Shown here: one piece after another, positions 2,068 to 50,903 of the stretch
Layout of the letters: each line of letters begins with the position of its first letter
Position numbering within the stretch: the stretch's first letter is position 1
Assembly: GCF_000702885.1 (NCBI RefSeq)
Contig: NZ_JNKO01000003.1
Span: 62,001-126,000, forward strand
From: Oribacterium sp. P6A1
Lineage (GTDB): Bacteria; Bacillota; Clostridia; Lachnospirales; Lachnospiraceae
Direction: 5' to 3'
Length of the DNA: 64,000 bases
Translations under genes and position numbers: made by a program
The notes under the pieces: generated by a model
What the model saw: only the letters and a program-made list of their open reading frames with translations
What the model was told of the DNA's origin: nothing
Database searches by the model: none

Positions 2068-2102
2068 AAAAAAATCTCATCACCCTTTTCGGGTAATGAG
2101 AT
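2068..2102 (-). terminator. Expression-platform terminator of the FMN riboswitch
   Basis: A 12-bp stem (2074-2085 with 2091-2102, ATCTCATTACCC arm) is followed by T7 on the minus strand. It lies 3' of the FMN aptamer and 5' of ribU, the classical arrangement for FMN-induced termination. Confidence 0.88.
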
Positions 2103-5817: not shown

Positions 5818-5911
5818 AATCGAGTAGGGAAAATACGCCCTACTCGATTCCACGTTGGCCGTCACATGTGCTTTTGTACAAGCACAACGCACGCGTGACA
5901 GCCTTATCGTG
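5818..5911 (-). ncRNA. Three-hairpin element, copy B (family 2)
   Basis: Minus strand, immediately after the T7 of the kinase-gene terminator: CACGATAAG; P1 GGCTGTCAC/GTGACGGCC (5895-5903 with 5857-5865, nine pairs); P2 GTGCTT/AAGCAC (5868-5885); joining box CAACGTGGAATC; P3 AATCGAGTAGGG/CCCTACTCGATT (5818-5849). This is the best-formed of the four copies in the window. Confidence 0.7.
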
Positions 5912-5940
5912 AAAAAAACAGCCCATCTGGGGACGGGCTG
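5912..5940 (-). terminator. Terminator of the sensor kinase gene
   Basis: The stem CAGCCC/GGGCTG (5919-5924 with 5935-5940) with T7 on the minus strand lies 15 bp past the kinase stop codon. Confidence 0.85.
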
Positions 5941-7520: not shown

Positions 7521-7720
7521 GATTCTATATCCTCTTCTGTCCGTATTTACTTCTCTGTAAAATCAGGAGGTTTCTTCGATGATTTCAAGATTTATAATTC
7601 CAGTCAGAGTCAATAAACGGACTTTCGTATGTTATTCTATCATACTCTTACTTTGGGGATTTTCTGTGAATTCATCAGCAGCCTTAATGTTTTTCTTATA
7701 ACTTCTGCCTTATCATAAAA

Positions 7721-7744
7721 ACCGCTTCCCTTTCAGGAAGCGGT
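7721..7744. terminator. Terminator of the response-regulator gene
   Basis: The stem ACCGCTTCC/GGAAGCGGT is flanked by A5 and T5 runs. On the minus strand it is followed by T5, ATGATAAGGCAG and a possible degenerate copy (about 7675-7716) of the family 2 element. The rest of the gap to the kinase gene shows nothing else I can support. Confidence 0.85.
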
Positions 7745-7789
7745 AAAAAGAGCATATTCAACTGTATTGAAATTACATGTTATACAGCC

Positions 7790-8461
7790 TCAGGCTTCGA
7801 ATTTGTATCCCATTCCCCAGACGGTTTTTATGTAATCTCCCTTTGTGCCTAGCTTTGCGCGAAGCTTCTTCACATGGGTGTCGATGGTTCTGGCATCACC
7901 GAAATAGTCGTAGTTCCAGACATTGTTCAGTATTTTCTCACGGGAAAGAGCTATGCCCTTGTTCTCGATGAAATATATGAGAAGCTCGTACTCCTTGAAG
8001 CTTAGCTCAACTTCAGCTCCGTCGATCTTTACGGAATGGGCGGACTTGTCAACCTCTATGCCGCCGATGTTTATGACATCTTCCTGATTCATGCCGGAGC
8101 GGCGAAGGATGGCTTCCACTCTCGCCACAAGAATCTTCGGGGAGAATGGCTTGGAGATATATTCGTCCGCGCCGTATTCAAAGCCCTTGAGCTCATCCTG
8201 CTCCTCGGAACGGGCGGTGAGCATGATGACAGGAACCTTGCTGTGTTCTCTTATGGTCTTCAGCACATCCCATCCGTTCATTTTCGGCATCATCACATCA
8301 AGGATGATAAGGGCAATGTCTTTGTCCGAGAAGAATCTGTCAACGGCCTCATCGCCGTCACCCGCTTCTATCACATCAAAATCCTTCAGCTTTAAAAAAT
8401 CGGAAATAAGCTTCCGCATACGTTCTTCGTCATCAACAACCAGTACCTTTAATCGTTCCAT
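7790..8461 (-). CDS. OmpR/PhoB-family response regulator
   Basis: 223 residues: receiver domain 1-115 (acidic pair D10-D11, phospho-acceptor D55 in LIILDVMMPK, Thr in MLTAR, Lys in YISKPF), then a winged-helix DNA-binding domain (about 128-222, ending RAKLGTKGDYIKTVWGMGYKF). It acts as a transcription factor for the kinase at 5955-7520. It starts 11 bp after the helicase gene, so it may be the last gene of a hflK-hflC-helicase-regulator transcript. A strong terminator follows it. Confidence 0.95.
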   Translation of the reverse strand: MERLKVLVVDDEERMRKLISDFLKLKDFDVIEAGDGDEAVDRFFSDKDIALIILDVMMPKMNGWDVLKTIREHSKVPVIMLTARSEEQDELKGFEYGADEYISKPFSPKILVARVEAILRRSGMNQEDVINIGGIEVDKSAHSVKIDGAEVELSFKEYELLIYFIENKGIALSREKILNNVWNYDYFGDARTIDTHVKKLRAKLGTKGDYIKTVWGMGYKFEA

Positions 8462-31839: not shown

Positions 31840-31897
31840 CAATATGCATACGTGCATAAGCTGCGGATTGCTCCGTGCTTCGCACTCTCGCAATCCT
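31840..31897 (-). other. Additional hairpin in the pyrG leader
   Basis: GGATTGC-GTGC/GCAC-GCAATCC forms a strong stem (about 31865-31896) between the family 2 element and the pyrG ribosome binding site. Confidence 0.5.
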
Positions 31898-31901
31898 ACA
31901 A

Positions 31902-32018
31902 AAATCTCGAATCCGCGCGATGCGCTGCTTCTCGATTTCTGTTGTCCTGTCAGATGTCTATGCATCCTTGCAAGTAAACTTGCAGTCTGCATAGCCGCCT
32001 GACAGGGACTTATGCACT
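31902..32018 (-). ncRNA. Three-hairpin element, copy D (family 2), in the pyrG leader
   Basis: Minus strand, directly after the T7 of the leader terminator: AGTGCATAAG; P1 CCTGTCAG/CTGACAGG (eight pairs, inner arms 31999-32005 and 31947-31953); GCGG; an extended P2 CTATGCA/TGCATAG with inner TGCAAG/CTTGCA (31958-31994); ACAT; the joining box ACAACAGAAATC; P3 closed by AAATC/GATTT (31902-31938). This is the longest copy. ACAGGGAC in the terminator loop can also pair with GTCCCTGT of this element. Confidence 0.6.
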
Positions 32019-32083
32019 AAAAAAAGAGGTGACAAAGGCTTAGGGACACTTTCGATTGTCCCTGTGACGCCTTTGTCACCTCT
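32019..32083 (-). terminator. Strong leader terminator of pyrG
   Basis: The outer 15-bp stem AGAGGTGACAAAGGC/GCCTTTGTCACCTCT encloses AGGGACA/TGTCCCT. T7 follows on the minus strand. The ABC-permease operon upstream has its own terminator (32216-32243), and a promoter lies between, so this is probably an attenuator. B. subtilis pyrG is also controlled by a leader terminator, but its GGGC start-site mechanism is not evident here. Confidence 0.75.
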
Positions 32084-50713: not shown

Positions 50714-50766
50714 ATTTCGATTTGAAGGTCAAAATCGGTCAGGCGTCCGCTTGAAAAATTATCACC
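50714..50766 (-). repeat. Partial tandem copy of the family 2 element
   Basis: GTGATAA and TTTTTCAAGCGGACGC of copy C (50829-50857) recur almost exactly at 50742-50766, followed by a different hairpin GATTTTGA/TCAAATC. It looks like a duplicated 5' half. Confidence 0.5.
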
Positions 50767-50860
50767 ATCCCGGGCAGGAAAAAGCGTCCTGCCGGATTTC
50801 GCGTTGGTTTTCAAATGTCCGCACGTGCAGGCACAGCGTCCGCTTGAAAAACTTATCACG
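50767..50860 (-). ncRNA. Three-hairpin element, copy C (family 2)
   Basis: Minus strand, immediately after the ygiQ-like gene terminator: CGTGATAAG; P1 GTTTTTCAA/TTGAAAAC (50844-50852 with 50807-50814, one bulge); GCGGACGC; P2 GTGC/GCAC; GGACAT; the joining box CAACGCGAAATC; P3 ATCC-GGCAGGA/TCCTGCC-GGAT (50767-50797). The stems differ from copy B but pair equally well. Confidence 0.65.
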
Positions 50861-50888
50861 AAAAAAAGAGCACGAGGTTGTCGTGCTC
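50861..50888 (-). terminator. Terminator of the YgiQ-like gene
   Basis: The stem GAGCACGA/TCGTGCTC followed by T7 on the minus strand. Between it and the stop codon lies GACGTGAGTGTCAAAA, an 18-bp exact match (with flanks) to 28755-28772. Confidence 0.88.
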
Positions 50889-50903
50889 TTTTTGACACTC
50901 ACG

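Follow-up and report, generated by a model that had tools for sequence, protein, structure and literature searches.

The window analysed here is a 64,000-nt stretch of Oribacterium sp. P6A1 (GCF_000702885.1, contig NZ_JNKO01000003.1, 62,001-126,000 of the forward strand), and positions are given within it unless a contig is named. It holds three consecutive tRNA genes on the minus strand (236-754), an FMN riboswitch (2120-2234, Rfam match) and four minus-strand copies of a structured element that a preliminary description had reported. R1, a model from the alignment of 23 short copies of the element in the same genome, returns five matches in the window. The four copies lie where they had been described, at 5818-5914, 50768-50863 and 1975-2070 and, weakly matched, at 31903-32020. 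The T-run of an intrinsic terminator precedes each of them, as had been observed, with two of these terminators found by a terminator scan and two by eye.

The best window copy of the short form (TTTCACGATAAG ... CTCGATT, 5818-5914, minus strand) scores 105.1 bits with R1 and lies directly 3' of a terminator at 5919-5940 (minus strand, terminator scan). Its helix P0 takes in the end of the T-run: the 5' arm, TTTCACG (5908-5914), can pair with CGTGGAA (5848-5854) within the conserved CAACGNGNAATC box, and this copy holds a compensatory A-U pair there. P1 is formed by arms at 5895-5903 and 5857-5865, and P3 is a hairpin, AATCGAGTAGGG...CCCTACTCGATT, at 5818-5849, all on the minus strand. Double changes affect six of the nine P1 pairs and six of the ten P3 pairs among the 23 copies. 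P3 of this copy also scored as terminator-like in the terminator scan of the window.

Two further short-form copies lie on the minus strand, at 50768-50863 (82.8 bits) and 1975-2070 (a diverged copy, 55.6 bits); like the 5818 copy, both are members of the training set of R1. The first follows a terminator at 50866-50890 (by eye) and is joined by a partial tandem unit, limited to the 5' part, at 50714-50766 (minus strand), where the GTGATAA-TTTTTCAAGCGGACGC repeat is visible by eye, as reported earlier. The second lies directly 3' of the terminator next to the FMN riboswitch (2074-2102, minus strand; Rfam and terminator scan), between that terminator and a downstream ORF at 1244-1867, and would be transcribed upon readthrough of the riboswitch terminator by RNA polymerase. 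Two degenerate candidates had been proposed as well. Behind the terminator at 7721-7744 (terminator scan), TTTTTATGATAAGGC is visible and a possible decayed copy (7718-7815, minus strand) scores 7.5 bits with R1 in an unfiltered search of 401 bases. Near 194, TTTTTTCGTGAAAGGGCC can be seen, and the site is absent from the five R1 matches.

The fourth copy is of a different form. Positions 31855-32014 (minus strand) hold a full-length Clostridiales-1 RNA (RF01699; 97.1 bits against a gathering threshold of 48, model positions 1-166 of 166), directly 3' of a long terminator at 32025-32083 (minus strand, by eye). Its part in register with the short-form model (31903-32020, minus strand) scores 19.0 bits with R1 (E 0.025 for the window), and its third hairpin and outer closing helix fall outside the coordinates first noted, 31902-32018. 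The three short window copies match no Rfam family even at E<=10, RF01699 included, and no Rfam riboswitch matches the element at the window copies. The set of four thus mixes one long and three short forms. The earlier statement that the element matches no known class fails for the 31902 copy, the one of the four with an Rfam match, and the word "undescribed" holds only for the short form and for the dispersal and targeting. The original observation was mostly right, and a wholly new RNA was not borne out.

Fold, copy number and relation to Clostridiales-1

The short form measures about 95 nt, with a range of about 90-110 nt. It begins with the T-run, TTTCGCG (P0 5' arm), ATAAG, P1 and a P2 hairpin with a CTTG-like tip, and continues with ACAT, P1', CAA, CGCG[AG]AA (P0 3' arm) and the hairpin P3, which ends in CGATT. 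The box ahead of P3 had been called single-stranded, a description that needs amending because part of it, CGCG[AG]AA, can pair with the 5' TTTCGCG as helix P0. The stems are under strong base-pair covariation, and the paired changes read from the original copies persist as more copies are aligned. In the 23-copy alignment, from which three degenerate or chance pattern matches (L047, L056, L060) were left out, standard pairs make up 90.7% of pair cells and 19 of the 31 pairs carry double changes. The covariation score is 0.355 versus 0.163 for shuffles, which ignore kinship, and no more than 0.092 for slid partners. Of the helices, P0 has the weakest support, because just two of its seven pairs are double-changed, once each. 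An independent consensus, built de novo on 27 other-genus copies, shows the P1/P2 stem again, with double changes in 14 of 17 pairs; it has neither P0 nor P3, both of which MAFFT splits in that alignment.

Among paired positions, G-T combinations number 215 versus 68 for A-C, counted as cells rather than independent events in the 88 distinct rows among the best 90 of 99. This excess points to folding of the terminator-side strand, not to a double-stranded palindrome. Two further interactions were considered and dropped. A pseudoknot between GCGTTG and CAACGC was set aside on finding, by eye, CAACGCG conserved in copies that lack GCGTTG. A role of the box as a guide recognising the T-run proved unnecessary: the last three flank bases change together with the box in subfamilies (by eye, TTT/TTC with GAA/AAA, ATG with TCAT, TTG with xCAA), and they thus seem to belong to helix P0 of the element itself.

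Further copies are present elsewhere in the genome. The box pattern CAACGNGNAATC has 25 matches in it versus one for the reversed control. With R1, the 3.70-Mb genome yields at least 77 matches at E<=10 and at least 44 at E<=1e-4, with 150 of 685 candidates scored. Dispersal is patchy among relatives. At E<=0.01, R1 is positive in 8 of 16 congeners (1-18 matches each), in 4 of 20 genomes of the same family and in none of 24 genomes of the same order. Family-wide, at least 19 of 397 genomes, the own genome included, are positive at E<=1e-6 in 17 genera, with ten candidates scored per genome. Most of the 80 best relatives of the CTP synthase encoded in the window, drawn from named genomes among which close ones may be missing, carry names of the Lachnospiraceae type. 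RF01699 itself has 43 matches at E<=10 in the own genome, 22 of them above the gathering score and a few of them short forms. Within the genus, 14 of 17 genomes contain it at E<=1e-5; G007 has the most matches, 62, and G005 has 37. Neither G005 nor G007 has a short-form R1 match at E<=0.01. In each of these two genomes, about four complete Clostridiales-1 units stand in tandem (G005:C1:498576-499248 and G007:C10:81831-82517). In the short form, tandem units sit behind the element's own P3 hairpin.

Comparison of the two models indicates how the forms are related. RF01699 scores 48.1, 45.4, 43.2, 39.6 and 30.1 bits on five short-form matches, which lie in four loci chosen because RF01699 matches there. 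One of the five reaches the threshold of 48, and the other four (30.1-45.4 bits), like the short window copies, fall outside the family as Rfam draws it. Conversely, R1 scores 24.2, 19.0, 18.7 and 17.1 bits on the long copies L013, L008 (the window copy), L011 and L005 (E 0.0014-0.07); the scores are weak, and the alignments take the same register each time, starting at the end of the T-run and reaching as far as the second hairpin extends. These in-register matches in both directions, which cover the first two thirds, mark the short form as a relative of RF01699 without the third hairpin and outer helix. On these alignments, the short form is best placed as a divergent branch of the Clostridiales-1 family. 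In a published table, Clostridiales-1 is entered as probably RNA, from Clostridiales and human gut, and the two columns that follow read "n" (Weinberg et al., 2010; PMC2864571). In Rfam, the long form is classed as an sRNA. The two "n" columns of that 2010 table reportedly stand for cis-regulatory and riboswitch. No report of small repeats behind terminators in this family was found in searches of open-access papers.

Position behind terminators and comparison of sites

The position of the elements was assessed with a test that accepts a hairpin of -8 kcal/mol or lower leading directly into a T-rich stretch (at least 5 T in 7). It was applied to 115 copies with retrieved flanks, a subset of all matches: 43 from the own genome (45 taken, two untestable), 43 from the same genus and 29 from other genera. 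The terminator hairpin is not part of any model used. Of the 115 copies, 96 have a terminator directly upstream on their own strand (38/43 own, 32/43 same-genus and 26/29 other-genus), a count slightly favoured by the three T positions at the 5' end of R1. At random positions of these loci, the pass rate is 91 of 5893 (1.5%); 13 of 115 copies pass at the 3' side on the same strand, and 1 of 115 passes on the opposite strand facing the 3' end. The pattern-based set, selected without the T-run, is unaffected by the bias of R1; 18 of its 24 distinct copies (identical matches among the 25 merged) pass, versus 38 of 403 in a wide-window control. The probable targeting of terminators is the novel part of the finding.

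Nineteen of the 115 copies fail. Four are inner tandem units (L086, L094 and the second units in L103 and L179), and the remainder have weak, distant or no terminators. Long forms of the ATAAG type pass less often, in 4 of 10 own copies and 2 of 7 in G005 and G007; the long window copy (L008) fails because its terminator exceeds the test window. Own long copies beginning with TGAT or TGAC gave nine testable cases, none of them behind a terminator. An L10 leader match in another genus overlaps at its end with a copy (L238).

Long copies of the TGAT class have a different surrounding. In the RF01699 copies examined (L387-L426 and L001-L021), a -10-like hexamer (at least 5/6) ends at or next to the element start in 27 of 35 TGAT-class copies, compared with 3 of 15 copies of the ATAAG type and 4.8% of random positions. 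In 12 of 35, a -35-like hexamer (at least 4/6) lies at a spacing of 16-18 nt, versus 4-8 of 35 at control spacings, only a moderate enrichment. In G010, near-identical TGAT-class copies have unrelated flanks. The -10-like position prompted a two-target reading, terminator and promoter, of the superfamily. According to it, the superfamily would consist of non-autonomous mobile elements whose branches home to the two sites at which DNA is kept open by RNA polymerase, the short branch (and, less consistently, the ATAAG long forms) to terminator T-runs and the TGAT long forms to -10 boxes, reading single-stranded DNA in the transcription bubble. We consider this doubtful; the -10-like position may be nothing but a TA-rich target.

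Comparison of the copies with one another and with relatives provides the evidence for movement. The 40 own copies compared form 780 pairs; in 35 of these the elements are at least 80% identical while the 50-nt flanks stay at background identity (0.58/0.59 vs 0.57/0.57), and the closest pair, 97% identical, adjoins unrelated terminators. At four sites, the 1976 site included, a relative keeps the terminator without the element, in comparisons with genomes that are only about 80-90% identical, and loss in the relative is possible. The cleanest empty site is the 1976 site in G016, which has the same terminator and downstream sequence. There the T-run leads straight into the downstream sequence (...GAGATTTTTTT followed directly by ATCTCAAAG), where the window has ...GAGATTTTTTT, the element and then TCTCAAAG. 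Inspection found no target duplication, neither as a T-run repeat behind P3 nor at the 1976 junction. This empty site lent support to movement of the element and took some away from an RNA role.

Other relatives vary at the same place. G010 has just about a dozen bases in place of the element. Five more (G004, G012, G014, G011, G015) keep the terminator with other, partly decayed-looking sequence behind it and no intact element, so that older insertions and losses appear to be mixed at the site. The inserts in five relatives (L196, L197, L200-L202) are short and partly decayed-looking, and begin TTTCGTTA... and TTATATAAATG.... Together, these sequences hint at repeated insertion and decay at a conserved, riboswitch-linked terminator.

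A 16-kb stretch with four copies (L203) is syntenic in relatives. In the own genome (G000), the sites C1:66215 and C1:74903 have a counterpart in G011 with a recognisable terminator and without the element (by eye). At C1:63146, G015 keeps the terminator without the element and G011 holds a decayed remnant (by eye). At C1:62925, G011 and G015 keep the terminator with a different element (TGATRYGAC...) behind it (L210/L211). The element of the 5818 site is absent in all seven relatives compared; no matching orthologous terminator is recognisable there, and this site consequently does not show which came first. From such comparisons, rather than from direct observation, we infer that the elements move.

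Explanations of the pattern

The short branch of RF01699, a dispersed structured repeat, is probably a non-autonomous mobile element whose insertions fall immediately 3' of an intrinsic terminator and on the same strand as that terminator. This was one of the options raised in the preliminary description, and it has gained from the position behind the T-run, the near-identical copies at unrelated terminators and the empty sites, alongside the dispersal, covariation and tandem units described above. Terminators would accordingly serve as the insertion target, rather than as sites where selection kept copies. Strand-specific insertion, the lack of a terminal inverted repeat or target duplication, and tandem units behind P3 suggest a folded single-strand target. 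As with group IIC introns or IS200/IS605- and REP-type elements, the hairpin and T-run may be recognised in folded, single-stranded form, and the conserved fold would be needed for mobilisation in trans by an enzyme. Insertion beyond a stop signal would be nearly neutral, which would explain the toleration of dozens of copies. Comparisons based on PF01797, PF00078 and group IIC-type reverse transcriptases (RTs) yielded no mobilising enzyme.

If the short form is such a mobile element, Clostridiales-1 would turn out to be a family of mobile elements that has a defined target, rather than a "probable RNA" without known role, and group IIC introns would be joined by a further kind of small bacterial element that homes to intrinsic terminators. 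The "safe harbour" behind terminators would explain high copy number without damage. An element of about 95 nt with a fixed target would also be well suited to the discovery of a new insertion enzyme, and the case would serve as a warning that multi-copy "sRNA" families in Rfam can be mobile DNA.

Descent from a single-strand (Y1) transposon of the IS200/IS605 or REP/RAYT type is somewhat unlikely. Hairpins near both ends, strand-specific insertion 3' of a short T-rich motif, and the absence of any terminal inverted repeat or target duplication would all fit this origin. However, the genome has two PF01797 matches at E<=0.01, of which one is a fragment about 230 bp from a copy that does not form its end and the other has no copy in its locus, and PF01797 finds nothing at E<=1e-5 in five of the eight congeners that carry the element. 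The Y1 transposase at C36:3664 was considered as partner of the copy at C36:4045 and rejected, as the IS605-like remnant ends in a different hairpin of its own. The remnant (L218, G000) is a decayed IS605-like element with a TnpB-like ORF and a TnpA fragment, and the copy about 230 bp away lacks a terminator.

A functional RNA, such as a readthrough sensor, a 3'-end stabiliser or a small RNA, could also be kept behind terminators by selection and be spread rarely by duplication. Strong covariation would fit this too, and the excess of G-T over A-C points to an RNA-like strand. Some copies would be transcribed, for example the one at 1976 behind the FMN riboswitch terminator and that at the end of the L10 leader, and the sRNA label of the long form agrees with such a role. 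Nevertheless, near-identical copies adjoin unrelated genes, conserved terminators occur in relatives without the element, half of the congeners (8/16) have no match at E<=0.01, and tandem arrays occur. An own promoter would be hard to place, judging from copies that start 0-3 nt after the T-run. Presence and absence among relatives, with near-identical copies at unrelated genes, likewise speak against a fixed gene-specific leader role. Taken together, these observations make a functional RNA unlikely.

The element might instead be a SINE-like hitchhiker of group IIC introns, using their reverse transcriptase/ribozyme RNP, which also inserts behind hairpins; the group IIC intron-maturase RNP is described in one report as targeting a DNA stem-loop (PMC10190682). 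Three congener introns, two in G009 and one in G013, start directly behind terminator-like hairpins (by eye). These group II introns (L219, L220 and L230) end in CCTACTCGAT, which equals the commonest 3' end of the element, and L219 and L220, the two of the three loci that were scanned, match RF02001. We take RF02001 to be the group IIC class. Group II introns begin with GTGYG, and other-genus copies of the element mostly begin with TTGTGCG or TTGCGCG. Yet the likeness of the 3' ends was noticed post hoc, and most copies depart from the motif: 41 of 115 (43 own, 43 same-genus and 29 other-genus copies with retrieved flanks) lie within one mismatch of CTACTCGAT, while 74 deviate by two or more, with compensating changes in P3. 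The 5' end varies as the P0 pairing is kept, and no group II RNA family matches at the window copies.

The distribution of RTs does not strengthen this origin. Relatives of the IIC-type RT occur in 6 of 27 element-bearing and 5 of 24 non-bearing genomes (E<1e-100), PF00078 matches in 17 genomes show no clear pattern with the element, and 17 loci around RT and Y1 genes contain no R1 match at E<=1. An RT class of 42-46% identity, present in 5 of 27 bearing and 0 of 24 non-bearing genomes, was discarded because the split was made post hoc and the class also belongs to group II introns; of its six loci, four match RF02001 and two match other group II models, and none has an R1 match at E<0.4. A hitchhiker of group IIC introns is improbable. 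Two other group II introns (L231 in G016, L232 in G000) seemingly lie inside a long palindrome, AGGTGCCTGTCA...TGACAGGCACCT, which is uninterrupted beside an RF01699 match at L027. Finally, chance resemblance among unrelated hairpins, for which the commonness of short hairpins after terminators and the original set of just four sequences could be cited, is refuted by copy counts, covariation and terminator-position statistics, and its probability is negligible.

Comparison with known systems

As a probable mobile element, the short form shares traits with several known systems. Like bacterial MITEs, it is non-autonomous, dispersed and under 200 bp. It differs from them in its ends, TTTCGCG... 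and ...CTCGATT, which on inspection are not inverted repeats, whereas the TGAT class of Clostridiales-1 does have terminal inverted repeats. With elements derived from IS200/IS605 and with REP sequences, it shares a small, non-coding, hairpin-bearing, multi-copy form and the lack of a visible target duplication; unlike members of those groups, it has no linked or co-occurring Y1 transposase. REPs, which are short palindromes bearing a conserved tetranucleotide tag, differ from it in size and fold, and we know of no terminator-specific position among IS200/IS605-derived elements or REP sequences.

The position directly behind a terminator hairpin, on the same strand, is shared with group IIC introns (for the introns, by eye). 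In contrast to these introns, the element is about 95 nt long, carries no RT gene, has no room for an ORF and at the window copies matches no group II RNA. Clostridiales-1, in its long form, differs from the short form in having a third hairpin (GCGAGAGTGCGAAGCACGGAGC type) and an outer closing helix. The two forms have in common ATAAG near the 5' end, P1/P2 with a GTGCTTGCAC-type tip, the CAAC box and the second hairpin in register, and both are multi-copy.
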